DNA from: an archaeon
GTDB lineage: Archaea; Aenigmatarchaeota; Aenigmatarchaeia; GW2011-AR5
Assembly: GCA_028279825.1 (NCBI GenBank)
Contig: JANQNA010000007.1
Span: forward strand, 1-64,000
Length of the DNA: 64,000 nt
Direction of reading: 5' to 3'
The notes under the pieces were generated by a model. It did not search any database and was not told where the DNA came from. It was given only the letters and a program-made list of their open reading frames with translations. Each line of letters opens with the position of its first letter. Position 1 is the first letter of the stretch. Positions 9,001 through 59,939 of the stretch are shown here, piece after piece. The translations under genes and the position numbers were made by a program.

Positions 9001-12000
9001 ATTATGTACATTGTTCATTGAACCTAACCAGACAGGTTTTCTGAATGCCGGTGAAAACCTTACATCAGCTGTCAGGGCAACAGTACCACTTGGTAAGGAT
9101 CCTGGAAGTTATTACGCCAAGATAAGATCGAATTCAAGCAATGCAGGTTACGACGAAATTCTGCTAAACTTGACAATTCCTTCAAACAGATCCTGGATAC
9201 AGAGCATCAACATACCATCTGTTTACATTGCTTCACTGAACACATCCGGAAACCTTGGCAATATATCAGTTATAAACACAGGGAATGAGAAAATAACATA
9301 CACTATTGTAAAGGGTGGTGACAATGGAATATTAAGCATAGAAGGCTTCTCGGCCTACTCATTTGATCTTGAAAAACAGATTACAAGAAACATATCTATA
9401 AACTATTCCGTTCCTGCCACGGCAACACAAGGTCTGTATAATGTAACGATTCTTATAAGAAATCCAACGGCCGAGCCTACGCAACGTAACGTTACATTTG
9501 TATTGAACGTGTCTGACACACCGCCTATACTTACCAACACTTTGATATATCCACTAGAATTTGAATTAGGATTTGAAAACATATCATTCCAGACAGATGC
9601 AACTGATAACTTTGGTGTAGATAAAGTATGGGCCAATATATCAACTCCGTTCAATACAAGTGAGATAGCCAACCTGACAAACTTATACAACATAACTTAT
9701 GTAGGAAATTACAGTGTAAATATTTCCGGCCTGTACCAGATAATGATATGTGCGAATGATACAAACAACTTACTGAGTTGTACAAACTTAACAAACGTTA
9801 CAAGTTCAGATACAACCACACTCCAGCTATTTACAATACCGGGTAATCTGACTGCCCAATACATAACCAGTCTGGCAAACCACACAATGAATGTAGTTCT
9901 AAGCCTGAACAACACTGGCGGATCAAGAGCGTTTAACGTAACGATGAACCTGACTTCGCTGAGCCCTAACGTCACAATAAACAACACGTACTTTGATCAT
10001 GTCATAATATACAAGAATTCAGCTGGTCTAAATGCAACGCTATTCTTTGTGAATGTTTCAACACAACCTGGTACATACATATTCAATGCCAGTTTGTACT
10101 GGGTTAATCTGGATGGATCCAATGTAAGCGCTGTGCACCCACTTCAGTTTAATGTAAGTTCAAATCCACAGATTAACGTATCGTCCAACTCAATAATCTA
10201 CCCTGTATATGACGGTCAGACCGGAAAGGTTCCAACAAACATAACCTCGTACGGTAACGTTAACGCCTCTTACATAGAATTTGAATGCATATCAGGAGAG
10301 ATATGCAATAACTTCACGGTGGAATTTGAACCTTCAAACATATCAAACATGGGAATAGTATCAACACGTCCGATAAATATATCTGTTACAGTGCCGTTAC
10401 AATACGAGACAGGATCGTACTCAGGTGTTGTACAGGTCAAATGGTACCAAAACAGGACTAACAACATAAGCCTGGAAATAGTCGTACCGGCCAACATAAC
10501 ATGGACACATGATCTGGATAACATAAGCTTAACTGTATACAATGACCAACAGGGTGTATTTGGATACGTTAACGTGACAAACTTCGGAAATATAGATACT
10601 CCTCTTAATCTTACCGTCAATGGAAGTATCGCACCTTACATAATCCTTAACCAGAGCAACATAACATTACCATATGCCGGTTCTGTTTTGATACCGATAC
10701 ACTATTCAACCTCTGATATAGAAAACAAAACATTGAACCTGACCGGTGCATTCATAACTAATCTTACAGGGCCGCTCAGAGAAAACTCAAGTACAAGAGA
10801 GGTTGGCACTGATCTTATAATGTACATAGAAAAATACAAGGTACAGATAGAATATCCGACAACACAAGTACCGATAATAGGTGTTGATCCGGGAGAAAAT
10901 GTGACGATAAAAGTAAATGTAACTGACAATGAAACAATAAGCAGCAACGTAACCTTCATAACAATGATACATAACAGTACCTTCTGGGTAATAGTCAATA
11001 CAACTGCTACGTACAATTCAACAGATTCAACGTGGTCACTGAACTTCACCGCACCGGATATAACACTACAAAGAGCTTACGGATTGAATGTAACTGCTAT
11101 ACAGAACCTGACAAATGTAACTTCTAGAAACAGAACTGACATGGAGTTAAATTCAATAATTTACAACGACAGTACATTACCGGCTATAGTAAACGAAATT
11201 CCTGTCAGAGTACTCCAGAACAGCAGCATAACAATAAGAAGCAACATAACCGAATCCGGCGGAATACAAAATGTAACCTCCAATATCACAACGCCAGACG
11301 GAAATGTGACACAAACAACCAGCACGTTAAACGGATCAAGCGGTGATATATACATATACACCACCCCATTCGACAATACAACAATACTTGGAGTATACAC
11401 TTTCAGGATATCAGTATGCGACATAACTGGTAACTGCAACTCAAGTGCAGAAACGTTTGAAATATATCCAACTGCATTGTTCTATGGTGATGTTGAGGAT
11501 GTGGAAGCATTGGCGGAACCTCCGCTTAACGTAAGCTTCAAATTCAAAGACTACGGAACATCTTCAGAAAGGTTCAACTTTGGAGTCAATCAGACTGACG
11601 GCAGCTTCAATGAGACTATTGACATAAAATCTTATGACATGGACATAGATATCCACAATCCGTTCATGATAACCACGATAGAACTGGGTAATCTTATTAT
11701 AGCCGGTGATACAAGAGAGCCTATAACGTTAGGTCGTATACCTAATGCAAGAACATCAACAAGTGTTCTAAAGGGATTGTACATATCAGATAATCTTACA
11801 TTTACTTCAGCTTACATAGAAATTGACTTCTCGGAATGTCTTAACGAAGGGTGCGGTAAACCAATCTATGACCCTAGACATCTTGCAATATACAAATATA
11901 CCGGATCATGGGTACCAAAAGTTAGTTCATCCCTGAATGACCAGTGGACAAGGTTGTCCAATATAGACGGTGACAACGCCGATGGAACAGTAAACCTGAC

Positions 12001-14164
12001 TTCATTAAGCATAAGAGCTCCTACAACAGGCCTTCCTGGAGCATACATACTGGCTGAATTCATTTGCGGAAACACGGACTGTGAAACTGATCTAGGTGAA
12101 AGTAACAGCATTTGTCCTTCCGATTGTCCTTACATACCACCGACAGAGGTTGAAGGAGGAGCCGGTGGCGGCGGAGGTGGAGGCGGCGGCGGAGGTGCCG
12201 CTGGAGGAGGAGCCGCGGGTGGCGGAGCGGCCGGCGGAGGTGCCGCTGGAGCTGCTGCACCACCAGTCACACCCTCGGAACCGGTAGAACTTGTGCCGCT
12301 GGAAGTTGATTCAGAGGTCGTGGAAATGCAGCTCGCACCTAACGAGGAGAAGGTATTCTCGATAGAAGTAACAAATAACAAGGCTTCTTCAACTGCCGTA
12401 AGCGTAACAGTCGAGGGTCCTGCATTCAATTTACTAACAGTGCAAAAACCTACATTCACCCTTGGCGGCACAACCACTGAGATAGTTGTGATAAAAGCAT
12501 TTGCACCTGGAAGTTCAGTTCCTGGAATATATGCCGGTGAGATAATTGTAAAGGCGGGTGATGTAACACACAAGACACCTGTTACAGTACAGATAAGACC
12601 TGTTCTTGAACCATTGCTCGACGTTTCAACAAAAGTACTTTCAAAAACAATGGATCCAAAAGAACCTCTTGTGTTCGAGGTTTCAATTCTGAACATGGGT
12701 GAGACTGCTACTGTCGAAGATATTACACTCACATACACGGTAAGACCTGTTAATGACCTGGATACAATCATAACGACCTCAAAAGAAACCCTGGGTATTG
12801 AGAACATCCAGACTATCAAGAAGGAATTGGATCTGCCGGACGGTACACCTGAAGGAAGATACCTATTGGAGACAAACGCAACTTATTGGTTTGAAAACAA
12901 GTACGCATCATCCGCAGACGATTTTGAAGTTGCCAACATACCAATACCGTTACTCATGTTGAGGGCAGTATTCCTGAATTGGATGACATATGCAATAGTA
13001 ATGGTTGGTTTCCCGGTCGGATATGTTGGAAGAAGATTCATTGTTGGTAAACTTTCAAAGAGAAAGAAACAGGCAAGATACATAACACCTGTGAACTTTA
13101 GTCTGCTGCCTAAAGCGGGCCCAACAGCAATACCGGTAGGTAAGATTGCAGAAAGTACAAGGAACGCCTACATGGATACAACGCAACTGTTGATGCACTC
13201 AATTGCCGCAGGTGGTACGGGATCCGGTAAATCCGTGTCCGCACAGGTTGTGACAGAGGAACTGCTTAAGAGAAAGGTTCCTATAGTAGTATTCGATCCT
13301 ACAGCACAGTGGACCGGTTTCATGAAGCCTTGTAAAGTTAAACCGATGCTGGATCTTTATTCAAAGTTCGGAATGAAACCTGAGGACGCTAAGGGCTTCA
13401 AGACCAACATAATAGTTGTCGATGATCCAAACATGGACATAAACATGAAAGATCACATGAAGCCTGGTGAAATAACTGTATTCGTCATGAACAGGTTACC
13501 GCCAGAGAAGCTGGATAACTTTGTAAGAAAGAGTATACAGTCAGTGTTTGACATGCGACCTCCTGAATCCAAGGAAGTCAAATTAATGCTGATCTACGAC
13601 GAGGTACACAGATTGCTGCCTAAATACGGTGGTAAGAAGGGTTACACTTCCATAGAAAGAGCAGCAAGAGAATTCCGTAAGTGGGGTATCGGCATATTCC
13701 TGATATCACAAGTATTGTTAGACTTCAAGGGTGCAATTAGAGCTAACATTGCAAACGAAATACAGCTGAGAACCAAGTACGAGGGTGACATCGGAAGAGT
13801 CAAACAGAAATACGGAATGGATTACGCATCTAAAGTAACCAAGCTAACCATAGGTACTGCATTGTTCCAGAATCCAGAGTATAACAACGGTAAACCTTGG
13901 TTCGTAAATTACAGGCCTCTAAAGCACAATCCATTTGCCCTTACAGATACGGAACTGAACAAGTACGTTGAACTGACAAAGAAAGCAGATGAAATAGCAG
14001 CCAAACTAGAGGCAATGAAGAAGGCCAAGAAAGATGTGTACGATATAGAGATAGAACTTAACATAGCTAAAGATAAAATAAAGACCGCAGCGTTTAAGAT
14101 GGCTGAAACCTATATAGATTCAGTAATTAAGCGTGTTGAGAAGCTGGAAAAGGGTGGTAAATAA
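2..14164 (+). CDS. Giant modular surface protein (partial, 5' end outside window) with Gly-rich linker, one TM segment and C-terminal HerA/FtsK-like ATPase
   Basis: Frame open from nt 2 (VGWYNCTFDSTGHSEG...) upstream of the listed ATG at 110; very many N-X-S/T sequons; Gly-rich tract ~12151-12260; hydrophobic segment LRAVFLNWMTYAIVMVGFPVGYVG followed by Lys/Arg ~12958-13070; Walker A GGTGSGKS at 13211-13234; Walker B LMLIYDEVHRLLPK ~13585-13620. Confidence 0.93.
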   Translation, partial: VGWYNCTFDSTGHSEGNWSVDINSTKQYFLPNTTTWMNRFWLENVEPLNLTEPNVTPSSGGWSRLFNFSVNLSDQEGDNLTCILWLNRTGQFVNQGNMTLINTTAGQICYVEVHDFGLSDIGTTKQFLFELRDTSFNNTFNTSVFNGPTIQESQVTVTYVFGNNSYVNRSGINVTVLRVLVNDTENGTLVGDGNVTFWVTTDNSSVAIGVLNKTSSDGISNYSFPPDCSYNVGDQVWFAGVTDPRYIDVNSTNLSLVIIGNLVNTVTDPSGQSFLRGENITLRGNLTDECNNRITDATVQFNYTHGPGVFLCSNVNNEKNQYFVYKENTTDFASGLLNQTKTDGENVTLLNDTTTTYYPVGNFTSQIFDPSGISNWTNISWAQISNVNTSVVLQVRSCNDENCSGENFTGPDGTNESFFTNSTLSILENVTSNRYFQYKVYFNTSNENQTAYFNGINITYMAFYLNGYYNCTLNTTSPTILPARYYNVTMFSNISLHNDHYITDLDEFFIKTRPYVDNTSIIPISGPWGGRFNFTVNFTDEDLDVSILRLYINRSVGVVLGGENSTVSGRNITVPYTVSEFFSSTDIGSRTYQFNATDSRGYTAATVFEEFNLTPDNVRADHIIGNNSIINRSAAETFFFSVKLVDISKESQPAFPSAKKGKIYYTKDGENYTNSPDRFTNSTGDISYSPADVDCSYEIGPQTWMGGSSGNTEYFDQNSTEFYWTVITDPLGGTIQQPLYQPFRNGTDPILLRGNISDDCGAVAGATVSFRVTKGGFTYTCPTTLDEGNGFYNCTVSAAATADWNYGMYNITMEISKQHYNGSNVSVVDTIFITSQPSVNSLQPQSELGITTGGWGEDWNFRATIQDLDGNDVNVSLYINVTGQWEFRNTTMCINEACINPTPITLGDSNFTCEHIGLRGFNFTARDEWNYTPSATSTFTLEQDDMVIEPVSGFGGEVNRDGNDNETLVIRGLDLDNSQYLGAGRNGTIYVRYNDSAFDAGNDTTSNSSGHFFIDFNPNCSYAVGPAKWRGGTQGDACYKNELSDDLDITIKGQLRQDFTYPLEGESIPVGDMIIINVTIPTDCYVDGNQTQSTISIEMIGPTANESCAPVVDLGQLGYNFTDNTSSDFNLGVYNGTETDGENVTLTDNSTGHYENLTGNFTSQVFEAGGVVTWKNISWSNVTNENTSIVLQVRSCNDENCSGEIFTGPDGFTTTYFTNSAHTSLQNLSKNRYLQYRAILNTTDADQTPYLMDVKIAYITSYLDGDYSCAWNTSLRTGGNYSFQINASKNNYNPNNTLYQNRIYLNNSPPILNHSNVTPSSGGWGRNYSFTIDVDDRQYDNVTCTLFTYTPNGWTNRGNHTIYGGYGTCNITVSSIDCSDINNSMVNRFKWEINDGTNHYNTTNTTGPGITRDFVIIEYVEGNNTISNRSGSQARPLVLKIFDNITQNYVPAGVNGTIYITKDSQVYDDGNDNTTNSSGHLRFDFDPTGTYDVGYQNWTGGTHNDICYYETNITQLNVSIWGDVVGSITTPTPTTEYLRGANVTIVVNLKDDLLINMENATTDMRTIHESGQNYSCTEFSYLGNGDYRCIINTGDPVIPARYYNLSLYANKSYYNPENETTADLFFIKTEPVLTNISVISEEGNATGGWGERWTFNVTVTDEDLDNITLTLKIKKDSEGEGSWVTVNSSVYTSNPDLIGPINQTISLTYYNPALFKDAQEVWNYRFDAEDFPHFYQTSSDVGNFTIEKDDVVITLLAGNATTTVRHNSTAISLTVNVTDIDDDSPAFSSNITFWVTTNSSDNSSWNSGFVTLTSGIGVATIPFNPGCTYTTGPQYWRAGTKNDPYYEYVNSTNFTTTIVTFLNITIINPSGEAYLIGSNVPMRVNLTDECEGIPGAEVTIADKFSGVVFDCVPPKHSGTIEEGGGSYVCNFDSSGMPFKYHDVEASARKQYFGDYPSWNITLKTQAFFLASAPSLGTPNVDLLLAGWGKTHTFSGAVTDQDQNNNTITLWHSIDGENFTIKNAQNVSPTYSGFPFSFLEEFICSNYLNATNGTNYFKINATDAFNFSDESSIYNFTLRPDAVTVTVSTINSSLDVRRQNNVNSNLRIVIQDTDRSNARTNGTNATIYISTNNSNFNETLGCLSAEGNCTVNYDPSCSSLYGPQEWKGGTTDVCYDYVNSTPRNITIIGQLGVTITKPENNSIANRGNNLNLISHTYDECAVNITDATILWHNSTWYNVANGSNVNWSVPITYKLGSETINVSAFHTYNDNNTNMSNIRVFGFSRISGIIPANNSEIDAGANIVIQCNVTDSNFSNPLENYSVEFYHTNLTNHSISIGSELTNVNGTATNNWSTTFEAAGVYDIFCNITENVTQFYNASDNRATTTITLLRKLLIQTIDVSTSDIYRNDSYSPFKTNITVEIDDAYIGPAVGADVRFYNYTGLLGNCTTNSTGHCIFNYNPANTSIPDLFTIYVNATLAGSEDSDTNTTQIIVRGILSANITYPVNGTQIPKSGGLTLNVTISTENYETLPVGTTIKWYNDSDINIANGSDTSIPQPTVAIQRTGYNIFTVNATKQYYDLGEDTVNITITSLADVYWDVPIPAAYVPYPHPFFVGCNVTDYASGSGISDYLVNFSYKWSNGTDTYNGTFLSSPEGVANYSFKPIQKGEILFNCTIGGNASQFYSANRDNDSSLFYVRDMNPPYIFNRSITPNASIEANVNVTNFTVSVEDNYDLSDVWIYLVLPNGTTINITMANISSPSYHNGTENTTTRYFANYTPVIGGNHTVLAFARDMPPESNVGNATIGTFEVVGNITGLLSQCANDTSDGDGTDCDSIVTAGAISQIQNYTFTIEAVFTNLGPSFSYDTNLSHLENPSGSVVYNESQRQCGDINIGDNCTWKFSVTIPKSTPPGIITTNVVANWRNPDMTTGEHQNQTEITVSSNPIVNISDERIDVAVQHGRTEEIANISTMSYGNDEIRDVFVTWYGISNVENGKNLATDCPLCTLFIEPNQTGFLNAGENLTSAVRATVPLGKDPGSYYAKIRSNSSNAGYDEILLNLTIPSNRSWIQSINIPSVYIASLNTSGNLGNISVINTGNEKITYTIVKGGDNGILSIEGFSAYSFDLEKQITRNISINYSVPATATQGLYNVTILIRNPTAEPTQRNVTFVLNVSDTPPILTNTLIYPLEFELGFENISFQTDATDNFGVDKVWANISTPFNTSEIANLTNLYNITYVGNYSVNISGLYQIMICANDTNNLLSCTNLTNVTSSDTTTLQLFTIPGNLTAQYITSLANHTMNVVLSLNNTGGSRAFNVTMNLTSLSPNVTINNTYFDHVIIYKNSAGLNATLFFVNVSTQPGTYIFNASLYWVNLDGSNVSAVHPLQFNVSSNPQINVSSNSIIYPVYDGQTGKVPTNITSYGNVNASYIEFECISGEICNNFTVEFEPSNISNMGIVSTRPINISVTVPLQYETGSYSGVVQVKWYQNRTNNISLEIVVPANITWTHDLDNISLTVYNDQQGVFGYVNVTNFGNIDTPLNLTVNGSIAPYIILNQSNITLPYAGSVLIPIHYSTSDIENKTLNLTGAFITNLTGPLRENSSTREVGTDLIMYIEKYKVQIEYPTTQVPIIGVDPGENVTIKVNVTDNETISSNVTFITMIHNSTFWVIVNTTATYNSTDSTWSLNFTAPDITLQRAYGLNVTAIQNLTNVTSRNRTDMELNSIIYNDSTLPAIVNEIPVRVLQNSSITIRSNITESGGIQNVTSNITTPDGNVTQTTSTLNGSSGDIYIYTTPFDNTTILGVYTFRISVCDITGNCNSSAETFEIYPTALFYGDVEDVEALAEPPLNVSFKFKDYGTSSERFNFGVNQTDGSFNETIDIKSYDMDIDIHNPFMITTIELGNLIIAGDTREPITLGRIPNARTSTSVLKGLYISDNLTFTSAYIEIDFSECLNEGCGKPIYDPRHLAIYKYTGSWVPKVSSSLNDQWTRLSNIDGDNADGTVNLTSLSIRAPTTGLPGAYILAEFICGNTDCETDLGESNSICPSDCPYIPPTEVEGGAGGGGGGGGGGGAAGGGAAGGGAAGGGAAGAAAPPVTPSEPVELVPLEVDSEVVEMQLAPNEEKVFSIEVTNNKASSTAVSVTVEGPAFNLLTVQKPTFTLGGTTTEIVVIKAFAPGSSVPGIYAGEIIVKAGDVTHKTPVTVQIRPVLEPLLDVSTKVLSKTMDPKEPLVFEVSILNMGETATVEDITLTYTVRPVNDLDTIITTSKETLGIENIQTIKKELDLPDGTPEGRYLLETNATYWFENKYASSADDFEVANIPIPLLMLRAVFLNWMTYAIVMVGFPVGYVGRRFIVGKLSKRKKQARYITPVNFSLLPKAGPTAIPVGKIAESTRNAYMDTTQLLMHSIAAGGTGSGKSVSAQVVTEELLKRKVPIVVFDPTAQWTGFMKPCKVKPMLDLYSKFGMKPEDAKGFKTNIIVVDDPNMDINMKDHMKPGEITVFVMNRLPPEKLDNFVRKSIQSVFDMRPPESKEVKLMLIYDEVHRLLPKYGGKKGYTSIERAAREFRKWGIGIFLISQVLLDFKGAIRANIANEIQLRTKYEGDIGRVKQKYGMDYASKVTKLTIGTALFQNPEYNNGKPWFVNYRPLKHNPFALTDTELNKYVELTKKADEIAAKLEAMKKAKKDVYDIEIELNIAKDKIKTAAFKMAETYIDSVIKRVEKLEKGGK

Positions 14165-15723: not shown

Positions 15724-18700
15724 TTATTTCTTACTTATGTTATCTAGTTTTCTTTGTATAGTCCTCTTCATTTCCTTGTAAGCTGTTTCACTTATTATAC
15801 TCTCTTTTCTTTCTTTGTCCAATACCGACAACATTCTACTTAATTTCTCCTTTTCCTTTGTCATGGATACTTTGCTTGGTTTGTGTGGCTTTATTCTATC
15901 TGCTATTTGTTTCAGGTGAATCAGTGTCTGTTGAATCTGTTTTGGCATCTTCTTTTTCCTGTTAAGATAGAACAGGATTATTATTACTGTCAATGGTATC
16001 AGAAGTATCAGTATTATTACAAGTATGCTTAACGGCTCTGCTCTCAGTGTTGACTCTAACGTGCTTAATATTTCTTTTGCTTTTTCAATAAGTATCTTTG
16101 CATCCTTGATGTGATTTAGTGCTGTTTGTGTATTGTTCAGATTGGCATTTATTTCTGCCTTGTTTATGTTCTGAAGTATTTCATCGGCTATAAAGAGAAC
16201 ATTTTCGACAGGTTTACCCTGGGATTTAGCAACCCCTATATCTATTAACAGGTCTCTATACTGGTTTTTCAGGTCTGCAATTTCGCCGTATATCAGATCC
16301 GATAAAGTCTCCACAACCTGTATGGTTATTGATCTCTGGTCACTTGTTGTACTCGTTGTTACTATAAGATTTGCTTTGTATTCACCGAGCTCCGCATTTT
16401 CAGGCACCTCAAACTCAAGAACAAAGACGGAAGTGTTATCAGGACTTAGCTTTTGATAGATTGTAGGTGTTATGTTGAACCAGTCAGCTGATATTCCTAA
16501 TACATTTAGCTTTATCTCATTCAACGGAAGTTCCCCTGTGTTCTTTATTACAACATACTCTATCCTCTTGAATCCCGGATAAAGTTTCAGGTCATCCGGA
16601 TATTTTTCAATAAACACTGATTTTAACCTGTCGGGTGCTTCAACATCAGTTACCTGTGCTGTTACCTTTGTTATTGGTGTTGTTCCGCCGCCGCCTCCAC
16701 CCGTAGGTTCTTCAGTAACGTTGTAACCTGCAGCAAGAACGTTGAATGTTGTACTTGCGTTTATAGGTGGCTGGGTATTATCGTATCTTACAGTTGCCGT
16801 AAACTTGTAAGTACCTAAAGGCTGGTTTGAAAACACAAAAGGTGTTCTTGTGAAGCTTACATTAGAGAATGCAGGTGTAAGTACAGCTTCCTCATCTTCG
16901 AAATACACAACCCTTGTTGCCAGATTCGCTATAGTATAATTAATGAATACGTCCTGGGTTACTTCTCCCTTATTTTCTATATGAATTTCGAACGTTGCCG
17001 GTGTTCCCTGCTGAACTTCAGGTGTCAATGCAACAACTCTAACGTCGTAAGGACCACCCTGTGTCACACGGAAAGCTTTCAGTTTCATTGTTGAAAGAGT
17101 TCCTTGTGTAACGTTCAGAACAGCCAAATACATTCCATTTGCTGTCGTAGCCGGCATTGCATAACTGTACAGGTAGTATCCGGAGCCTAATTGTGTCATT
17201 GAAGAATCTGTGACTGAAAAGTATGTGTTCTGTGCAGGATCAAGAACGGTCAGATTCATTGTTGTAGGATTTACCGGCTGTCCCTCACCGTCGTAAATCA
17301 AAGTATTAATTCTCATGACGTTGTTAGGAAACCAAACAACTGCTGTTTCAATATCAGCGAACAATCCTGTAACAGTAACTGTTTTTGCACCTACATCAAA
17401 TGTGTATGTGTTCTGGTCAGTTACCATCTGATCTAGTAAAGTATCGTTATATGTTGAATTTGTTTTCAGTGTATAGGTTCCGACTATCGCGTCTGATGCC
17501 AGTAAAAATGTTGGCAGAGGAGCAAATGTTCCCAGATAATCTGTTAATCTGTTTGCAGTATATATCAAAGTTGAGTTTGGATCGTAAACAAAGAATGATA
17601 CGTTAACATCTTCAACACCTGAACCATTCAGTGCAGTTGCTGAATAATAAAGTGTTGCAGTGTCACCCTGATAGTACTGGCTTGACAATGTTGTTGCTGC
17701 TATATTTACCTTTTTCCCTATTGTGAAATTTGTTGTTGAATTTCCAACGTTTCCTATGGAATCTCTTGCATATATTGTTACATTATATGTACCACGGGCG
17801 GATGTATTACCGAACGTTCCGTTGGCATAATTTACTGTCCATCTACTTACATTGCCTATCTGCGATACAAATGACATATTTGCAAAGTCTGATGTACTGT
17901 TAGGTCTCAATATTGTCACGTTTGCAATTGTTACCGAGAAGTCCCCTGCAGTTATATTTGCTGAAATTGTCACCTGTTCGTCCTGTTCAGGCTCTTCCGG
18001 AGCCACTTCTATTGTAATGTTTGGAGGGGTATAAGGCAGTATTGTTACATTTAGAGTTATGTTAACCGGAGTTGCGTTATCCAGTGCCTGGACGACAAAT
18101 GTTGAGTTGTACTCTTTCTGTGCGAATCCCGTTATGTTGTACAGAACCGCGAACGTATAGTTTTGACCTTCCAACGAAGTGAAATTTGTTACATTTGTAC
18201 TGGTCTTGTTTGCATTTACAGATATTATTGTGAAATTTATGTCTTCATTTCCTATGTTTGACACATTTACTTCACATACAGTTCCCTCATTTGAGAAGGA
18301 ACTTTTCTGGCAGAATGTTGGCTCCATTCTCCATCCTCTATTGGCATCAACTGTAACAAATAATGTAACCATTCGTTCTCCGTCATTTTGTGTTGATACA
18401 TTCAAAGTTCCGTTGTGTATACCTGCAGAAAAGTTAACAGGAACTGTGATGTTAATCACAACAGACGTGTTTGTTCCAAATTCAAGATTTTCTATCGTGG
18501 ACGGTATCACAGTAACAGTAAGATTATTACATACTGTGCCGCTGTTACAGGTGAATGTTATGTTTGTCAGGTTCCCACTACCCGTGGAAAGAACTGTCAA
18601 GTTGTAAGGATTTGTTGTCTGTCCGTGATAAACATTACCAGTTAGTGTAGAGTTTTCCACATTAAGTACAGGATTATCGACAACGGTTACGTTGAATATG

Positions 18701-21561
18701 TATAACTGTTCTGCTGTTGTGTTATCCAGATTTGTATATACACTTGTTATGTTTATTGTATAATTACCGGGTGCGGTACCGTTTGGTATTGTGACTGAGA
18801 CATCCTTGGAGCAAACCTGGTTGTGTGTTATGTTTCCGCAGTAATCAATTGTAGTATTCATAGCCCATCCAGGAATTGTTGTATAAGTTATGTTTGTGTA
18901 CCTTGCACTGCTGTTTCCTACATTTGTCAGATTTGTCTTTATTGAAAATGTTGAATTATCAAATACTGTTATGTTCAGGGCCGTTATGTTTACCGGGGTT
19001 ACTACCATTGATATGTTGGTTTTGTTCTGTATTGTCAGGAAGAATATAACAGTGTCTGTTGTGTTTGACACTGAAGAGTTTACAAGAATAGTACCGTTGT
19101 ATGTACCTGGTGTGTAGTTAAGGGATATATTGGCTATTATATCTATAGAGAAATTATCGCCGCTGGGTAACTGTGATAAGAAAGGTGACGATACAGTTAT
19201 ATTGAAATTCTGGCATGCATATCCTGATCCGCAGGATGTATTTATGCTCCACGTGTTTGATATACCTATCGATTCCAAAAGAAATGTACCTATGGTTTTT
19301 GACGTACCATCTGCTCCCACACCTGTCACGTTTGTTTCGGCAATAGAAATTTGTGAGTGAGGTGAAACAGTTACATTCACAGTTGCGTTTGTTGTGTTGG
19401 ATGAGTAATCAGGGTTTATCCACACAATGCTCAAATTAAACGTGTAGTTACCAATGGCTGTGTTGTTTGGTGCTGTAACATTCACAGTTCTTACACATGA
19501 TGATTTATTTGCTATGTTTCCGCAGCTCTGTATTACACCTGTCCAGTTTTCCAGCAACTCAAGTGTTATGTTTGAATCTCTTGATGTACCATCTCCCGGA
19601 TTTGAAAGGTTAACATCTATAGAGAACGTGCTGTTAAATCTTATTGTCATATTTTCCACGTTTGGTGTCAAAGGTGTCCAATTAAGTTCAAGGTAAGTTT
19701 TCGGTGCTTCTGCCGTGAATTGTTCGGTACTGTTTCCTGTATTATTCACCTTTGTTACGTTACAGAATAAGTCGTACATGCCAACCTGTGCAGGAGCCGT
19801 GAAATTAATTGCCCATGTTCCGTCAAGATTGTCTGTTTTATTAACTACATTGGTGTTATTGAACGTGCAGTCCAAAGAAGATCCCGGTATCTGCAGTGTT
19901 TGGTTAAAGTTCTTTATTGTAATAACTGCAAATATCTGCCTGCTTACAATACCTATGGAGTTCGATATGTTTACATCTACAGAATAAACATCCGTTACGT
20001 TGAAAATGAATGTTGTTGAATTCAGATATTCTTCAATGTCGTTATATGTAGACAAGTTCATGATCCATTGTGTTGTATTTACGTCTGACGGGAACGTGTA
20101 ATTGTTTGTGAATATCTTATCGTCGGCTGTTTGATCACCGTTTGTTCCGTCATCATAAAGTCTTACTATAGTATCATCTGACGTCGAAGGAGTTCCCATG
20201 TCCAGTGTTGCGTTTATGTAAGCAACAAGATTGTACGGATCTCCCTCGGACACATTTCCCTTTATCAATACAGTTTCGTTGTAATTGAAAATTGTTGCAT
20301 TGATTGAAGGTTGTATAACGTTTGACCATTTTTCTGACAAATTACGTGTTATTATAACATCTGTGGAAGACCCGTTACGAACGTCTAAAAACTCTGACAC
20401 ACCATCAGAACCACCGGTTGCAAAGAATATAACCGCTGTTTCTTTTATTGAAGTTCCATCCGTTATTGTTGTGTTTGTTAAACCTATACCTATTCTTCCA
20501 AGACCTGTTGTGTCATTTCCAGCATAATAGTTTGAACTTGTTTCATTGATGTTTACCAAACCTGCTACACTACCTGACGAGTCGGAAGCCCAAGTCCACG
20601 AATAAGGATCGTTCATATCCCGGTCTCTGTTATTCACATCATTGTTAAGGAATGTTCGTTGTACATCCAGGGCAACTGCCCCGAATCTGCTGGATCTATT
20701 CACAGTAGCGTTCGCAAAGAACTCGTGGCTAATCTTTATGAACGATCCTTCGGCTTCAGGTCCTGCTCTGTTGTATATGAAATATTTCTTTACCACTCTT
20801 CCCTGCCCTGTTTGTTGTGATACATTACCAAATACAACCTCGGGCCCTTCCTGTATTATGGTTAATCTGACAGGTCCCCATACGAATGACGCGTTACCTA
20901 TCAGGTCAAACGTTGTGTTAATAGTTCCGTTGTAGAACTCTAAATATTCAGCTGTTCGTTCGGAAGATGATGTCACAATAACAGGTACGAAGAATACGCG
21001 CTGCTGCACGTAAGATAAACCTGATGTGTTTTCGTATCCGTTTGTGTCTATCTTTATTCCAAGCATTGTTGTATTAACGGAAACTATTTTTCCGTCCCAT
21101 GAGTAAGATATGTTTGAATCATAATTGGCAATATCTTTCTGTGTGCTTCCATCTATATCAAAGTATACGTAGAAGGTTCGCTTCTGATCCGGATCAGTAG
21201 TTCCGTTCATTAGGAATATTAGTTCGCCTATTGCATTGGATGCATTGTTATAGCCTGCACCTTTGTCGAACTGGCTTGGAACGACATGCATTACGTGATT
21301 CGTTTCATTGTATTCAACAACTCTTATTGATTCGTTATCAAATGTGCCTCCAGGCAGTAAGTCTGAAAAATTCACCGTCATTTCTATCGGCCAGTCTGTC
21401 CTGTTTACTGTTGTTCCATTAACCTCTATCTTAAACCTGTAATCCCATGAAATATTGTACCATTCACCGTCTGTTGGGTTGGAAAATCCGGAGAATGCTG
21501 TAACTATGCCTAATGAAGCTATGAGTAATATCAGCCCTATGTAGATTCGTTTTTCTATCAC
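15724..21561 (-). CDS. Giant surface protein with signal peptide, NEW3/CARDB-like repeats, C-terminal TM and SHOCT-like cytoplasmic tail
   Basis: GTG start; N-terminal hydrophobic signal MIEKRIYIGLILLIASLGIVTAF; sequon-rich repeats; TM LSILVIILILLIPLTVIIILFYLNRKKK; tail LDKERKESIISETAYKEMKRTIQRKLDNI. Confidence 0.92.
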   Translation of the reverse strand: MIEKRIYIGLILLIASLGIVTAFSGFSNPTDGEWYNISWDYRFKIEVNGTTVNRTDWPIEMTVNFSDLLPGGTFDNESIRVVEYNETNHVMHVVPSQFDKGAGYNNASNAIGELIFLMNGTTDPDQKRTFYVYFDIDGSTQKDIANYDSNISYSWDGKIVSVNTTMLGIKIDTNGYENTSGLSYVQQRVFFVPVIVTSSSERTAEYLEFYNGTINTTFDLIGNASFVWGPVRLTIIQEGPEVVFGNVSQQTGQGRVVKKYFIYNRAGPEAEGSFIKISHEFFANATVNRSSRFGAVALDVQRTFLNNDVNNRDRDMNDPYSWTWASDSSGSVAGLVNINETSSNYYAGNDTTGLGRIGIGLTNTTITDGTSIKETAVIFFATGGSDGVSEFLDVRNGSSTDVIITRNLSEKWSNVIQPSINATIFNYNETVLIKGNVSEGDPYNLVAYINATLDMGTPSTSDDTIVRLYDDGTNGDQTADDKIFTNNYTFPSDVNTTQWIMNLSTYNDIEEYLNSTTFIFNVTDVYSVDVNISNSIGIVSRQIFAVITIKNFNQTLQIPGSSLDCTFNNTNVVNKTDNLDGTWAINFTAPAQVGMYDLFCNVTKVNNTGNSTEQFTAEAPKTYLELNWTPLTPNVENMTIRFNSTFSIDVNLSNPGDGTSRDSNITLELLENWTGVIQSCGNIANKSSCVRTVNVTAPNNTAIGNYTFNLSIVWINPDYSSNTTNATVNVTVSPHSQISIAETNVTGVGADGTSKTIGTFLLESIGISNTWSINTSCGSGYACQNFNITVSSPFLSQLPSGDNFSIDIIANISLNYTPGTYNGTILVNSSVSNTTDTVIFFLTIQNKTNISMVVTPVNITALNITVFDNSTFSIKTNLTNVGNSSARYTNITYTTIPGWAMNTTIDYCGNITHNQVCSKDVSVTIPNGTAPGNYTINITSVYTNLDNTTAEQLYIFNVTVVDNPVLNVENSTLTGNVYHGQTTNPYNLTVLSTGSGNLTNITFTCNSGTVCNNLTVTVIPSTIENLEFGTNTSVVINITVPVNFSAGIHNGTLNVSTQNDGERMVTLFVTVDANRGWRMEPTFCQKSSFSNEGTVCEVNVSNIGNEDINFTIISVNANKTSTNVTNFTSLEGQNYTFAVLYNITGFAQKEYNSTFVVQALDNATPVNITLNVTILPYTPPNITIEVAPEEPEQDEQVTISANITAGDFSVTIANVTILRPNSTSDFANMSFVSQIGNVSRWTVNYANGTFGNTSARGTYNVTIYARDSIGNVGNSTTNFTIGKKVNIAATTLSSQYYQGDTATLYYSATALNGSGVEDVNVSFFVYDPNSTLIYTANRLTDYLGTFAPLPTFLLASDAIVGTYTLKTNSTYNDTLLDQMVTDQNTYTFDVGAKTVTVTGLFADIETAVVWFPNNVMRINTLIYDGEGQPVNPTTMNLTVLDPAQNTYFSVTDSSMTQLGSGYYLYSYAMPATTANGMYLAVLNVTQGTLSTMKLKAFRVTQGGPYDVRVVALTPEVQQGTPATFEIHIENKGEVTQDVFINYTIANLATRVVYFEDEEAVLTPAFSNVSFTRTPFVFSNQPLGTYKFTATVRYDNTQPPINASTTFNVLAAGYNVTEEPTGGGGGGTTPITKVTAQVTDVEAPDRLKSVFIEKYPDDLKLYPGFKRIEYVVIKNTGELPLNEIKLNVLGISADWFNITPTIYQKLSPDNTSVFVLEFEVPENAELGEYKANLIVTTSTTSDQRSITIQVVETLSDLIYGEIADLKNQYRDLLIDIGVAKSQGKPVENVLFIADEILQNINKAEINANLNNTQTALNHIKDAKILIEKAKEILSTLESTLRAEPLSILVIILILLIPLTVIIILFYLNRKKKMPKQIQQTLIHLKQIADRIKPHKPSKVSMTKEKEKLSRMLSVLDKERKESIISETAYKEMKRTIQRKLDNISKK

Positions 21562-28358: not shown

Positions 28359-28574
28359 ATGGAAATGACGCTGCAGCCTCTGAGAAAGATGATGAAAAGG
28401 GCCGGTGCCAAAAGAGTGAGTGATAAGGCAGCCGGGCAACTGGGGTTAATTCTTGAGGATCACGCAAAAATACTTTTACTAGAGGCAAAAAGGCTGTCAG
28501 AACACGTTGGCAGACGTACAGTAATGAAAAGAGATGTGCGCGCGGCGCGTAAGATACTGGAGAAGAGACAGTAA
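28359..28574 (+). CDS. Archaeal histone
   Basis: PLRKMMKRAGAKRVSDKAAGQLGLILEDHAKILLLEAKRLSEHVGRRTVMKRDVRAARKIL histone fold. Confidence 0.92.
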   Translation: MEMTLQPLRKMMKRAGAKRVSDKAAGQLGLILEDHAKILLLEAKRLSEHVGRRTVMKRDVRAARKILEKRQ

Positions 28575-28621
28575 AAATATCTTTATATACTAGTCACTAT
28601 ATAGTGGTTACAGGTGTGGAT

Positions 28622-29029
28622 ATGAACTGGAAAGAATTCGCTGCAGGAGCCGCTATTGCGGGTGTAACAGCAGGGGTTATAGGTCAGGGTGTGTATACAG
28701 GTAAAACAAGGCAGATTAAGGAAGCCGCTGAAAGAAGGGCTTATTTTCAAGATGCTGGTTTGCATGTAGTTCAATGCCCAGATACCATGGTTACATGTGT
28801 TTACAGACAAACAGGTGATGGTCCACAGCTTATTGGTAAATACGGACGCAGCCTTATAGACGGAGTAATGGAGTTCCAGCCTGAGGAAAATGATACTGAA
28901 TTAGAAGAGTTTGCCGGTAAAGGTAGAATGAGGGTAAGAAAAAAGTCTTCAGACGTGGATTGTACTGCTGATACTATAGAAGACTTGTCAATAGCTGCCA
29001 GTTATGCACCGTTATTGCTTTTGTGGTAA
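28622..29029 (+). CDS. Small membrane-anchored hypothetical protein
   Basis: MNWKEFAAGAAIAGVTAGVIGQGVYTGK N-terminal Gly/Ala TM; related layout to the next gene. Confidence 0.65.
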   Translation: MNWKEFAAGAAIAGVTAGVIGQGVYTGKTRQIKEAAERRAYFQDAGLHVVQCPDTMVTCVYRQTGDGPQLIGKYGRSLIDGVMEFQPEENDTELEEFAGKGRMRVRKKSSDVDCTADTIEDLSIAASYAPLLLLW

Positions 29030-29065
29030 TTTAGTCCTTTAAACATTTTTTAGATATCTTTGATT

Positions 29066-29371
29066 ATGTTAAAGGAACTTGGGCTATCTATTGCACTATT
29101 AGGTGGTGTTGGTGCTATGGCAGGTCTTTCTGTTTCACAGGAAAATGAAAGAAGGGGAAACCTCAGAAATGCCTTTACAGAAGCTGGTTATGAGATCGTT
29201 GGTTCTGGAAGCCAGATTGCGTTCTTAAGAGATGGAGAGATTGTCGGACACTACAGAATTGATCCTTTTAACGGATCGTATTTTGTGACAACAGACGAAA
29301 AGGCTCGTAAACTCGCCATAGGACACGCAAGAGTTAGTAGAACGTCGCTAAGTCCTTTCCCAGGCTACTGA
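29066..29371 (+). CDS. Small membrane-anchored hypothetical protein (paralog-like)
   Basis: MLKELGLSIALLGGVGAMAGLSVSQENERRGNLRNAFTEAGYEIV; TTTAAA element ~27 nt upstream of the ATG. Confidence 0.65.
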   Translation: MLKELGLSIALLGGVGAMAGLSVSQENERRGNLRNAFTEAGYEIVGSGSQIAFLRDGEIVGHYRIDPFNGSYFVTTDEKARKLAIGHARVSRTSLSPFPGY

Positions 29372-29400
29372 TTGGTCTTTAAACATTTTTCTGAAATACT

Positions 29401-30387
29401 ATGTGGATGCTTAATGAGATCATAAAAAGAATTGCTTCTGAAAGCGGGAAAACAGAAAAGGAAATCAATGTTCTTATTGAAGAAAAAAGGACGGAACTGT
29501 CTGATTTAATTTCTGAAGAAGGTGCAGCTTACATTGTTGCCAAAGAACTGGGTGTGGCAATGATAAAGCAAGACAGACTTAACATAGCAAACATAGTTGC
29601 CGGGATGCAAAATGTTGATGTTGTCGGCAAAATAACCAACATTTCGCCTGTCAGAGAGTTTAAAACAGAAAAAGCATCAGGGCGCTTTGCCAATGTTACT
29701 ATTGCTGACGAAACCGGATCCGTGAGAATTTCTTTCTGGAATGATGAAATTAACCACTTAGCCGGTATGGAAGTAAACGATGCGGTGCGTATCAAAGGAT
29801 ACGTTAAAGAGGATAATCTTGGCAATCCTGAGATAAGACTTGGCAGGTACGGCAATATTGCAAAGAGTGATGAACAAATAGGCACAGTAAAGGAAGCGGA
29901 ACGGAAAACTGCACGTACTTCTATAGCAGGCCTAACGGAAGGCGGTTACAAGGAGATAAGGACGCCTCTGCTGCAGATATTCGAAGGGAATACCTTCTAT
30001 GAGGTCTGTCCTGAATGCCGCTCACGCGTCAAGTTAAATGATAAAGATGAGTTTGCATGTGAAGAACACGGGGAAGTAAAGCCTGCTTACGGCATGATTA
30101 TATCCGGAATATCTGACGATGGGACAGGATCAATAAGAACGGTTTTCTTCAACGAGAATGCTGAGAAGATTCTGGGAATGAGCACAGAAGATGCCAAGAA
30201 AGTGTTTGATCGTAAAAAGAAAATAACTGCTGTGCTAGAACAGGTTCCGTTGGGGAAAGAACTAATATTGACGGGTAGGGCCCGCAGAAACCAGCTTTTT
30301 GAGCGGCTGGAATTCATAGTCAACGATGTTAAGGATGTTGATGTAAAACAGGAAATAGAATTATTGCTAAACAGTTTGAACGAATAG
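29401..30387 (+). CDS. Replication protein A (OB-fold ssDNA-binding protein)
   Basis: Two OB folds (NVDVVGKITNISPVREFKTEKASGRFANVTIADETGSVRISFWNDE) plus zinc ribbon CPECRSRVKLNDKDEFACEEHG. Confidence 0.88.
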   Translation: MWMLNEIIKRIASESGKTEKEINVLIEEKRTELSDLISEEGAAYIVAKELGVAMIKQDRLNIANIVAGMQNVDVVGKITNISPVREFKTEKASGRFANVTIADETGSVRISFWNDEINHLAGMEVNDAVRIKGYVKEDNLGNPEIRLGRYGNIAKSDEQIGTVKEAERKTARTSIAGLTEGGYKEIRTPLLQIFEGNTFYEVCPECRSRVKLNDKDEFACEEHGEVKPAYGMIISGISDDGTGSIRTVFFNENAEKILGMSTEDAKKVFDRKKKITAVLEQVPLGKELILTGRARRNQLFERLEFIVNDVKDVDVKQEIELLLNSLNE

Positions 30388-30399
30388 AGGTGAATTGAA

Positions 30400-30747
30400 A
30401 TGAAAAACTCTGCAGAAATAACACAAGATATAAGAGATGAAGTAGATTATAGATGGCTTGGCAGTCCAGGGTTTGATAAACCATTTGAATTTGATTATAG
30501 AGGAAGTCATATTTCAAGCAAGTTTGCCAAAGTGCGAGAAGGTGTAGTGTTAGTACGCCCGTATACTGTTATGTACTCGTTAGTACCACAGGCTTTTGAC
30601 TTGCGTGAAGTAAGTAATCCAAGTGTACCTAATGAAGAAAATTATAGACCCCATTCACATCCTCTAGAAGGGGGTAGTCAATTCTGGGGACCCAGATGGA
30701 GTTTAGATGTACTTGGCGGTGCAAATGAATTAGGAAAGGAGGTATAA
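30400..30747 (+). CDS. Hypothetical protein with C-terminal FWGxRW motif
   Basis: SD-like GAGGTGA upstream; [21 protein letters not shown]. Confidence 0.65.
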
Positions 30748-30749
30748 AC

Positions 30750-31781
30750 ATGGCTTTCAAAAAGAAAAAAACGGTAGAAGAGGAATTGGCTGAACTCAGC
30801 GAGGGCGCTGATGAGGTAGAGAAGGATACTAGTGACAAGGATGTGGATGAACTTACTATAGAAGATCTTCCTGGTATTGGTCCAAAGGGTGCTGAAAAAC
30901 TTAGAGAAGCAGGTTATAATGATTTGATATCTATAGCAGCTGCCTCTACAGGTGAAATAGGGGCTGCATGTAGCATAGGTTCGGCAACTGCGGAAAAAAT
31001 TATACAGTCTGCTAGAAGTAAGCTCGACATGGGTTTCAAGAGTGCTTCTGATGTACTTCAAAGGAGAAAGGAAATAGGTAAAATAACAACTGGCTCCGCT
31101 ACGCTGGATGCTCTTCTAGGCGGCGGGGTGGAAACGCAGGCGATAACAGAAGCGTTTGGGGCCTTCGGCTCCGGCAAGAGTCAAATTGGATTCCAGCTTG
31201 CTGTTAATGTGCAGCTGCCTAAGAAAGACGGTGGACTAAACGGTAAATGTGTTTTCATTGATACGGAAAGTACGTTTCGTCCTGAGCGTATAATGCAACT
31301 TGCAGAGGCGAAAGGATTGGATCCAAAGAAAGTTCTAAAGAACATTCTTATTGCTAAAGCATACAACAGTGATCACCAGGTTCTTTTAGCGGAAAAGGTA
31401 AAAGACCTGATGAAGGAGCACGATGTAAAACTTGTGATAGTTGATTCTATGATGAGTCACTTTAGGAGTGATTACAGTGGTAGAGGAGAATTAGCACCAC
31501 GTCAGCAAAAATTAAATCGGCATCTGCATGCACTACAGAAATTGGCTGATACAAACAACGTTGCTATTTATTTTACGAACCAGGTAATGGCTCGTCCAGA
31601 CGTCATGTTCGGCGATCCAACAACACACATAGGTGGACACATAATCGGACATGCATCAACGTACAGACTATATCTAAGAAAAAGCAAACAGAGTACAAGA
31701 ATTGCAAGATTGATAGACAGTCCTAATTTGCCGGAAGGTGAAGCTGTGTTTAAGCTGTCGGAAGTTGGGTTGAGTGACTGA
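30750..31781 (+). CDS. radA: DNA repair and recombination protein RadA
   Basis: Hh[14 protein letters not shown]; Walker [40 protein letters not shown]. Confidence 0.96.
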
Positions 31782-32391: not shown

Positions 32392-33594
32392 TTACGCTCT
32401 CACAAGAATGCTTCTTATAGAAGGTGAAACCTGGTAAGCAAACGCTCTATCAACACGTACACGCTCTACAAGGCCTTCTTCCATCAGTCTCTTTAGGATG
32501 TTATTCATAGAACGAACAGCATGCTGACGTGATTTGTATTTTTCTAAATCCAACTTATCCGCTACTTGTCCTGGTGTTAAAGGATCGACAAGCATTTCTA
32601 CTATTTCACGTTGTGTAGGCGTAAGCTCCTCTAAGAACCTCAACGAGACTTTAACCTCTTCTGATGCCATTTCCGGAACAACCAATTCTTTTGTGAGAGG
32701 TCTGCCTGTCTTCATGGACTCATTAATAATATCATTACATACTTTGATGATCTCACGAGGGAAGCCGCCAGAGCGGCTATAGATAGTATCAATGATTTCA
32801 CTAAACTCATTACCTGTTCCACCGACACTTTGAATTCTCTTAACAATTAATTCCCTTGTTTCTTCTTTTGTGAGAGATACGAGTTCTATTTTTGCCATGA
32901 TTCGTTTTCTCAGCGTTTCTAGTCTTGTAAGGTTTTCTTCGAAAACAGGTAATCCTGCCAATACAATGGACATATTGTCAACCTGGTCGCTTAGGACACG
33001 AAGCCATTCTAAGACGTCAGTCTTGGACTCATGGGCCTCATCATACATTACAATCAGATGCTTAGAACGGAGGCGTTTATTCAAAAATCCTTTCAATTGA
33101 TATATGTTTTTTATGTGAGGCTTACGGAACGGTATTTTTGTAGGATATTTTTCATTGAATATGTCAACAAACTCTTCTGGTTTTTGCGGTGGTTTTCCAA
33201 TAAAAACAAAATCGAACACTTTATTTACACTACCTGCCAGCCACTCAAGCATTGTGGTCTTGCCTGAGCCGGTTGGGCCCACTAGTAGTACTACTTTGTG
33301 CTTTTCCTTCACAAGCCTCACAAGGTCTTCTGACTGTGACCTATATCCAACAAACAATTCTGGCAATATATTCAGTATGAACGGATTTCCTGCCCAATTC
33401 ATAGTTCTAAACCACTCTTCCGGTTCTTTAGGCATTTTCTTCTCTGGAATGACTGTTTTTGGCTCTTCTGGTATTAACTGTGCCGGGGCGGGCATCACTT
33501 GTTTCTCAATCTTTTCTATCCTCTCTTCTATTTTTTCTTCATTCTGGGCATGGGCTTCCTCTATTTTGTCCTCTTTTTTCTCTTCCATGCCCAT
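32392..33594 (-). CDS. AAA+ ATPase with C-terminal winged HTH (Orc1/Cdc6- or ExeA/TniB-like)
   Basis: NPFILNILPELFVGYRSQSEDLVRLV; Walker A LVGPTGSGKTTML; Walker B LIVMYDEAHE; C-terminal LTPTQREIVEMLVDPLTPGQVADKLDLEKYKSRQHAVRSMNNILKRLMEEGLV. Confidence 0.85.
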   Translation of the reverse strand: MGMEEKKEDKIEEAHAQNEEKIEERIEKIEKQVMPAPAQLIPEEPKTVIPEKKMPKEPEEWFRTMNWAGNPFILNILPELFVGYRSQSEDLVRLVKEKHKVVLLVGPTGSGKTTMLEWLAGSVNKVFDFVFIGKPPQKPEEFVDIFNEKYPTKIPFRKPHIKNIYQLKGFLNKRLRSKHLIVMYDEAHESKTDVLEWLRVLSDQVDNMSIVLAGLPVFEENLTRLETLRKRIMAKIELVSLTKEETRELIVKRIQSVGGTGNEFSEIIDTIYSRSGGFPREIIKVCNDIINESMKTGRPLTKELVVPEMASEEVKVSLRFLEELTPTQREIVEMLVDPLTPGQVADKLDLEKYKSRQHAVRSMNNILKRLMEEGLVERVRVDRAFAYQVSPSIRSILVRA

Positions 33595-33634
33595 TATTTA
33601 TACTCTATAGTATATATATTTATCTGTTGTCAAG

Positions 33635-33990
33635 TTCACACATCTTCACGAGATTTTGATCCAATTTCACGGACTTTAGTCTTATCTTCATAAACTTCAC
33701 CAACTCTTTCACAGAATTCTTGTTTTGTTCACGAATTTCACGTGAAATTCACGTGAATGTGGTGAAATTAGGCGTGAAGTATATGAAGGTTTTGTGAAGG
33801 GTTTATGAAGGTTTTGTGAACACTATTCCGGGTTTTTGTCATAGTACATGTTCAATTGTGAGTTTTGACTATATAGGGTCTATGAGATTCATTTTGTTTG
33901 TGAGGGTTTTTCACGATGTTCACATGAATTCACGTAGATCTTCACGGATTTTCATGAACTTCACATGAAGTTCACGTGGTATTCACGAAC
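33635..33990. repeat. Helically phased TTCAC/GTGAA pentamer array (three blocks, ~85-bp spacer)
   Basis: TTCAC at 33635, 33645, 33666, 33696, 33708, 33728, 33737, 33748; GTGAA at 33742, 33753, 33762, 33774, 33794, 33816 (ATGAA at 33783, 33805); TTCAC at 33910, 33919, 33929, 33941, 33960, 33971, 33982 (TTCAT at 33687, 33951); spacings 9-12 or ~20-21 bp. Confidence 0.85.
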
Positions 33991-34086
33991 ACAAATTTTT
34001 TTCGGGTGCCATCTATCAAAAATCGTGAGCCAGGGTTAGACTTAATTTTATGACTCAAATCAACATTACTTTGGCTATAGTATTGC

Positions 34087-34108
34087 AAAAGGCAATATTT
34101 TGCCTTTT
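34087..34108. repeat. Inverted repeat AAAAGGCAA-TATT-TTGCCTTTT
   Basis: Perfect 9-bp stem; followed by a second dyad AGGATTTAATCCT. Confidence 0.6.
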
Positions 34109-34138
34109 TAAAGGATTTAATCCTAAAAATAGTCTTTT

Positions 34139-34441
34139 TTATTCGATTTTGCTCATGAGCCTCAAAATTTTCATGATCTGCTGGAGGTTGGAACCAGATT
34201 GCAGTCTCTCTATGACAAAGGGCTTTAGCTTGACTACACGCAGAAGTGGCTTGCTATCCGGACCTAGGCTGACATCATCAATCAACGGTGCAAGCACTGT
34301 TTTCAGGTAATGAGCTACTGTTGTAGGCGAATAACCCGCCTGTTTGGCTATTTGTCTAAGCCAAAGTCCATCTGGATTAGCTGCCAGGACTGATACTATC
34401 TTCGCAATCTTCTTCTCATCGAAGCCTTTCTTCCTTCCCAT
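34139..34441 (-). CDS. HTH DNA-binding protein
   Basis: Likely start MGRKKGFDEKKIAKIVSVLAANPDGLWLRQIAKQAGYSPTTVAHYLKTVL. Confidence 0.7.
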   Translation of the reverse strand: MGRKKGFDEKKIAKIVSVLAANPDGLWLRQIAKQAGYSPTTVAHYLKTVLAPLIDDVSLGPDSKPLLRVVKLKPFVIERLQSGSNLQQIMKILRLMSKIE

Positions 34442-34602
34442 AGGGAATAAACTGGACAGCTGTACATAAAAAGATATCTGTGGGTATGAAGTCTGTAGAT
34501 GCAGAATTTTGGTACACATGGAGTTTTTGCGAATTTAACTCTCATACGCGCTTTATTCCTGGTTCTGACAGTAGTTAATAAGCTTTTTCGCTATTTATTA
34601 CT

Positions 34603-59250: not shown

Positions 59251-59583
59251 TTAACCTACTAATTTAGTTGGTTCTATGGGAAAAATGCCAACAGGTTCTC
59301 TTGAGCGCGAATCCCTTCCAAGATGGTTTTCCAGAACGTACAACAGAGTTGGACGTTTCATAGCTCGTCCATATATAAGACCACCCCGATATAAAAAATA
59401 ACCGGGACCAAGACCACTAAAAACACCGTAATCAAGATCTTGTTGGAACCATAAACAGTCGTCAAGGATACTATCAGGGAACTCTCGGAAAATATACGAC
59501 CCGTTAAGTGGGACTGGATCAGTTGGTTCTAGAATTAATATCTTTTCTCCATTATCTTCCGGTACTTTGGCATGGGTAATCAT
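59251..59583 (-). CDS. Hypothetical protein
   Basis: Likely start MITHAKVPEDNGEK; stop abuts the DUF35 gene's stop. Confidence 0.55.
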   Translation of the reverse strand: MITHAKVPEDNGEKILILEPTDPVPLNGSYIFREFPDSILDDCLWFQQDLDYGVFSGLGPGYFLYRGGLIYGRAMKRPTLLYVLENHLGRDSRSREPVGIFPIEPTKLVG

Positions 59584-59939
59584 AAAAATATTAGATTGAA
59601 TACAAATAAAAGCTTTTCCAGGGTTTATCAAGAATAAAAATCCCAGACACCTTTGTTTCGTATGGAAATATTATATTTTGAAGGTGGTTTTGTGTTGAGA
59701 ACCACACTTTCATTTCATATAACATAGTTATAAAGAAGAAATAGATTAATAGGGGGTTCTATAGGAAGTCATAGGGTGTTATGTCACTACTGATATACAG
59801 TTCTTAACATGTTCTTTCCGGATTGATTAACTATATATAGTTCCAGGGGAAATGTAGGTAAGTAGTTTGGTGAGAAGCAAAAGAAAACATTGGTCATGTT
59901 CGATGCTATTCACTAACAATTGGTAACAGGGGTGGTTTG

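Follow-up and report, generated by a model that had tools for sequence, protein, structure and literature searches.

How small-genome archaea, most of them uncultured, start copying their chromosomes and distribute the copies has, to our knowledge, hardly been studied, and text searches of the literature found no paper on chromosome initiation or distribution in these organisms. The locus described here raises the question in a concrete form: ahead of the gene of an AAA+ ATPase lies an intergenic region in which one pentamer, TTCAC or its complement GTGAA, recurs in step with the DNA helix. Which protein reads these sites, and what does the resulting complex do? The array may belong, so far unrecognised, to the machinery by which a class of small-genome archaea begins to copy its DNA or sorts it; text searches returned no paper on it, which is not proof of absence. 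Because this cis-site occurs nearly throughout the class and has only one obvious protein partner, the question is directly testable, and if cognate binding is true, the partner would be one more AAA+ family among the few that assemble on such arrays.

Here, we characterize the array in a 64,000-nucleotide stretch of archaeal DNA (the window) and in related genomes, examine its association with the ATPase gene and with orc1, and weigh what it may do.

A phased pentamer array at the start of an AAA+ ATPase gene

The intergenic region (33595–34138, as the first-pass annotation had placed it) is bounded by the start codon of the AAA+ gene on the minus strand (33594) and the stop codon of a small winged helix-turn-helix (wHTH) gene (34139). 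Our recount returned the same 21 exact TTCAC/GTGAA sites that had been reported earlier. They span 33635–33986 in both orientations with a phasing of ~10.5 bp that is kept in relatives, while any other 352-bp stretch of the 64-kb window holds at most five. When the 1-kb stretch preceding the AAA+ gene was dinucleotide-shuffled, it contained 3.1 sites on average and never more than 9. The autocorrelation check that the first-pass annotation had proposed gave a signal above its control: same-orientation spacings reached a periodic score of 0.75 at a best period of 10.15 bp, a score never attained in 2,000 random placements of the sites (mean 0.15, maximum 0.50).

On the plus strand, the array reads as a TTCAC block (33635–33741), a mixed palindromic core, a GTGAA block extending to 33820, and a second TTCAC block (33910–33986). 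The first two blocks converge at the palindrome TTTCACGTGAAATTCACGTGAA, which we confirmed at 33736–33757. The same arrangement with a 5-bp offset, TTCACGTGAA, was seen 55 times in the pooled loci and presumably resembles a contracted ORB dyad. Just outside the first array site, inspection of the sequence revealed an AT-rich, TATA-like stretch (33611–33621, minus strand), a putative element of the AAA+ promoter.

The divergent blocks are separated by a gap (33821–33909, minus strand). The ~85-bp spacer noted earlier does exist but is not empty: it holds a TACTATGacaaaaacccGGAATAGTG core (33821–33846), common to the window and its relatives, and two CTCAC variants (GTGAG on the plus strand) at 33858–33862 and 33900–33904, exactly 42 bp apart. 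In about 15 loci, the gap contains CTCACAAA, then ACTCACA 31 or 42 bp on, then TAcTAT-N-AAAA-ccgGAATA; the window counterparts on the minus strand lie at 33900–33904, 33858–33862 and 33821–33846, respectively. Read in the sense of the AAA+ gene, many loci show the same block order: a distal GTGAA block, the gap, a TTCAC block, a GTGAA block and the promoter. One might guess that the gap core is a melting site or the site of a second protein. This gap and its equivalents in loci L001–L018 carry a conserved core made up of CTCACAAA, ACTCACA and TACTAT-N-GGAATA, which has imperfect dyad symmetry and a spacing of three or four turns.

Conservation across the class

The first-pass annotation had also asked whether orthologous loci carry the array, and they do: it adjoins the start codon of the AAA+/wHTH ortholog in all 31 loci examined, and begins within ~60 bp of that start in nearly all of them. 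Site density in these loci was 9–42 per kb, measured over 1 kb upstream in 29 of the 31 and over a shorter stretch in L006 and L019; shuffled sequences averaged 0.9–4.4. Pooled same-strand spacings from 27 loci (570 sites with full flanks) peaked at 11, 20–22, 30–33, 41–42, 52 and 62–63 bp, and their best period was 10.45 bp, the helical repeat. The earlier proposal that the sites lie on one helical face is thus well supported by the comparative data.

We detected an ortholog of the AAA+ gene in 53 of 60 relatives and in 118 of the 160 genomes of a phylum sample, all 118 from one class. Genome size and gene content suggest that the host lineage is DPANN-like. A strict pattern of three in-phase TTCAC sites was present in 84 of 158 genomes, and most of the matches listed were no more than ~1 kb away from the AAA+ gene; a reversed-pattern control was near zero. 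In families f7, f8 and parts of f13 the gene is present and the strict pattern rare or absent, from which the motif or its spacing appears to have drifted there. In each of the five long contigs that we scanned (G050, G006, G003, G009 and C8, the window's own contig), the array surpassed every other TTCAC cluster in density. In the single 875-kb contig of G050 it holds 14 sites per 300 bp, the next-densest cluster 6, and a second TTCAC cluster in G009 falls at the same locus as its array. A scan of contigs from named relatives yielded chiefly P-loop lookalikes, with a true ortholog only in CP070662.1. Given the shuffles, the random placements, the reversed-pattern control and the conservation across genomes, an origin of the array by chance or as an artefact of low-complexity composition is excluded for practical purposes.

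Several genomes stood out in these scans. The array of G155 (f11) is greatly expanded: its 33 three-in-phase TTCAC matches lie on a single strand and far outnumber those elsewhere (G022 has 19). G088 (f20) has 16 matches to the reversed control CACTT-N-CACTT-N-CACTT, again all on one strand, which represent a different repeat array or a tandem repeat. G068, in which the AAA+ gene was undetected, has a three-in-phase TTCAC match shortly downstream of orc1 (C17:5896–7054).

The AAA+ protein as the presumed binder of the array

The adjacent gene (32392–33594, minus strand) encodes an AAA+ ATPase of AAA_22 type, ExeA/TIGR03015-like, with a STAND-like GGFPRE motif and a C-terminal winged helix, and we presume it to be the protein that binds the array. 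A nearly class-invariant DNA site predicts a conserved recognition helix, and this is what we observed: among 15-residue windows of the protein, conservation is highest in the wHTH recognition helix at residues 353–367, YKSRQHAVRSVNNIL (0.88), slightly ahead of Walker A (0.85).

A natural duplication bears on the same point. The single contig of G112 (apparently CP070662.1, whose AAA+ coordinates are the same) carries two close ATPase paralogs, at C1:255466 and 461468. They are separated by more than 200 kb and both have a TTCAC cluster of their own, and a diverged third copy has none. The close pair is a duplication of the gene-plus-array unit, and together with the bare third copy it suggests that the array follows the ATPase gene. 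Families in which no neighbouring HTH gene was found likewise keep the array beside the AAA+ gene. From these comparisons, the array is very probably the cognate binding site of the adjacent AAA+/wHTH protein. The first-pass annotation had suggested, among other options, a nucleation array for a filament-forming protein, and the comparative evidence lends good support both to the link between array and gene and to the idea of nucleation.

By the tests run, this system belongs to none of the Orc1, ParABS or TIGR03015 families. The ATPase matches TIGR03015 over its AAA core only (E = 7e-21), and its 74.9 bits lie far under the curated cut-off of 324.5, so we rejected membership of that family. 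We also rejected its assignment as an Orc1/Cdc6 initiator: it is absent among the listed TIGR02928 or NCBIfam matches, alignment of its profile with an Orc1 profile by hhalign gave a probability of 15% over the AAA+ region only, and canonical orc1 is a separate gene. A fold search placed archaeal ORC2/Cdc6 on top (E = 3e-9, TM 0.39), with the MuB filament among the matches; the model, predicted from two sequences, is weak (pLDDT 62) and its fold matches serve as leads only. We found no sign that the gene came from a mobile element, as there was no phage match and matches on viral contigs span the P-loop region only. The plasmid matches listed are ExeA-type ATPases, 25–29% identical at a coverage of at most 59%.

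Relation of the array to orc1

The window contains a canonical orc1/cdc6 gene (TIGR02928, 427 bits; 59937–61163, plus strand), divergent from the AAA+ gene with the array between them. Upstream of it lie ORB-like TTC-N4-6-GGAA repeats (59265–59853) at 59265–59282, ~59655–59669, 59750–59767 and 59834–59851, which form a candidate for a conventional Orc1 origin. Across the class, orc1 genes are preceded by ORB-like TTTC-N-TGGAAA repeats, and those of the window resemble the CTTnnTTTCnTATGGAAAT elements that precede the gene in many relatives. Within the array, we recognised no ORB repeat; the ORB-like TTC-N-GGAA sites are at orc1. Since these repeats of orc1 lie 26 kb from the array, a conventional origin may sit there.

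Both genes share a contig in 22 genomes. In 21 of these, the flank of the ATPase gene that carries the array points towards orc1, and in 20 the two genes are divergent; the median distance is 16 kb (range 3–58 kb). Linkage is common, not universal, since the AAA+ gene of G118 lies 294 kb from orc1; in G112, one of the two array copies is ~200 kb away from it. The ATPase, a canonical high-scoring Orc1 and the array are jointly missing from families f20, f27 and their neighbours. Among genomes at least 85% complete, 56 have both the AAA+ protein and canonical Orc1, 3 have one only and 16 have neither, a count that ignores phylogeny and in which the co-absences come mostly from one clade and may reflect one or two events. 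Genomes of f20, f27 and f28 (G055 and G086–G107) have no canonical Orc1 and only a short Orc of ~350 aa (156–273 bits); this clade may start replication differently.

The first-pass annotation had left open an origin, a partition site or a nucleation array, and a role related to an origin is favoured by the linkage to orc1 and by the joint loss with Orc1. GC skew lent this no support. We ran the check that had been suggested on five long contigs (raw skew, third-position residual and intergenic skew) and found no usable signal or turning point at the array or orc1. In G050, the skew does not turn at either, its minimum lying near 48 kb and the array at 665 kb; in the other long contigs the skew is weak or patchy, and the test is low in power.

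A proposed mechanism and its alternatives

The computations establish that the array exists, is phased and conserved, sits at the gene, is missing where the gene is missing and is linked to orc1. On this basis, we propose that the wHTH domain of each ATPase reads one TTCAC half-site. With a site at every turn of the helix, all on the same face, ATP-bound protomers would pack side by side into a directional nucleoprotein filament; that the protein oligomerises on the array is what we infer from this geometry. Opposed blocks converge close to the AAA+ promoter, at the TTCACGTGAA palindromes, and point outwards from the conserved gap core. The filament would act as an orisome-like element, comparable to arrays of DnaA boxes or iterons. 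Together with Orc1, it would prepare chromosome initiation in this archaeal class or regulate it, and the complex would also autoregulate the ATPase gene. We put an origin-type output alongside Orc1 at a little under even odds; it is the most likely output, with segregation or pure autoregulation possible. In its fuller form, this is a lineage-specific second initiator, an ExeA/STAND-like AAA+ protein unrelated by family to Orc1 and DnaA, which would nucleate on the one-turn array of TTCAC sites and be needed, like Orc1, for initiation or origin segregation throughout this class of archaea, and we give this reading a probability of roughly 35%.

The closest working analogy is the bacterial DnaA-box array. 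In E. coli oriC, the low-affinity DnaA sites are 9-mers with 2 bp between them and form two sets of opposite orientation (PMC6727663). The present array shares with such arrays the close spacing, which amounts to an ~11-bp repeat in oriC, and the opposite orientations. The DnaA-box system, too, pairs an AAA+ ATPase that has a C-terminal HTH with sites often near the initiator gene; as in DnaA- and iteron-type systems, multiple one-turn sites lie here beside the gene of an AAA+/HTH protein, presumed to bind them. Unlike in DnaA systems, the site is TTCAC rather than a 9-mer box, the protein is an ExeA/STAND-like wHTH protein, the host is an archaeon with Orc1, and origin activity is putative. 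Archaeal Orc1/Cdc6 origins built on ORB or mini-ORB sites are similar in joining an AAA+ and winged-helix protein to inverted TTC...GAA-type sites beside its gene, and ORC2/Cdc6 are the nearest PDB folds to the ATPase, by a weak model. They differ in that the array has no G-rich ORB tail, comprises ~20 one-turn sites against few ORBs, and lies apart from orc1. The AAA_22-type AAA+ core is shared with ExeA and the XrtA-associated ATPase (TIGR03015) and with MuB/TnsC. The last two function in transposition and bind DNA with no phased array of sites.

The site might instead serve autoregulation only, the AAA+/wHTH protein cooperatively controlling its own promoter, and perhaps the HTH gene, without a chromosomal role. 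In its favour, the array nearly always starts within ~60 bp of the AAA+ start beside a TATA-like element, both close paralogs of G112 have their own cluster, and the distance to orc1 varies (3–58 kb on shared contigs and far larger in G118). We nevertheless consider it doubtful: ~20 phased sites over 350–700 bp, with a polarity that recurs in several families, go beyond usual autoregulation, and the presence of one site per genome near orc1 and its joint loss with canonical Orc1 would then be coincidental.

A centromere-like partition site, coated by the wHTH protein and mediating chromosome segregation, is the other output to be weighed. In ParR/parC and TubR/tubC centromeres, a small DNA-binding domain forms a curved filament on one-turn direct repeats, and one-turn iterons with small DNA-binding domains are typical of them. 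The array has such repeats; its presumed origin-proximal location fits parS-like sites, and in most genomes it is unique per chromosome. It departs from these systems in having opposed orientations with palindromes, a DNA-binding domain fused to an ExeA/STAND-type AAA+ ATPase, and no adjacent ParA-type gene. We know of no partition system in which such an ATPase is the centromere binder. A search of PF13614 proteins for a ParA-type motor found none at the array locus, the nearest ParA/MinD-type gene lying ~24–33 kb off in G003, G006 and G007 and on another contig in G000. We regard a partition site as rather unlikely.

Neighbouring genes and the small wHTH protein

Across the array from the ATPase gene, a small wHTH protein is encoded (34139–34519, minus strand) that could in principle bind the array in place of the ATPase. 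Its gene is conserved near the array within the window's own order and adjoins it in many genomes, and the imperfect dyad of the gap core is a possible site for this protein. Yet f9, f14 and part of f15 retain the AAA+ gene and the array with no recognisable HTH homolog, which disfavours it as the main binder, and the near-invariant recognition helix of the ATPase points away from it as well; we rate this reading as highly improbable.

Beyond the ATPase gene lies a conserved neighbourhood on the plus strand (28359–31781) encoding a histone (28359–28574), RPA (29401–30387) and RadA (30750–31781). Further out are two giant convergent ORFs, at 110–14164 (plus strand; 4,684 aa) and 15724–21561 (minus strand; 1,945 aa), which have almost no homologs in four relatives and probably encode large surface proteins.
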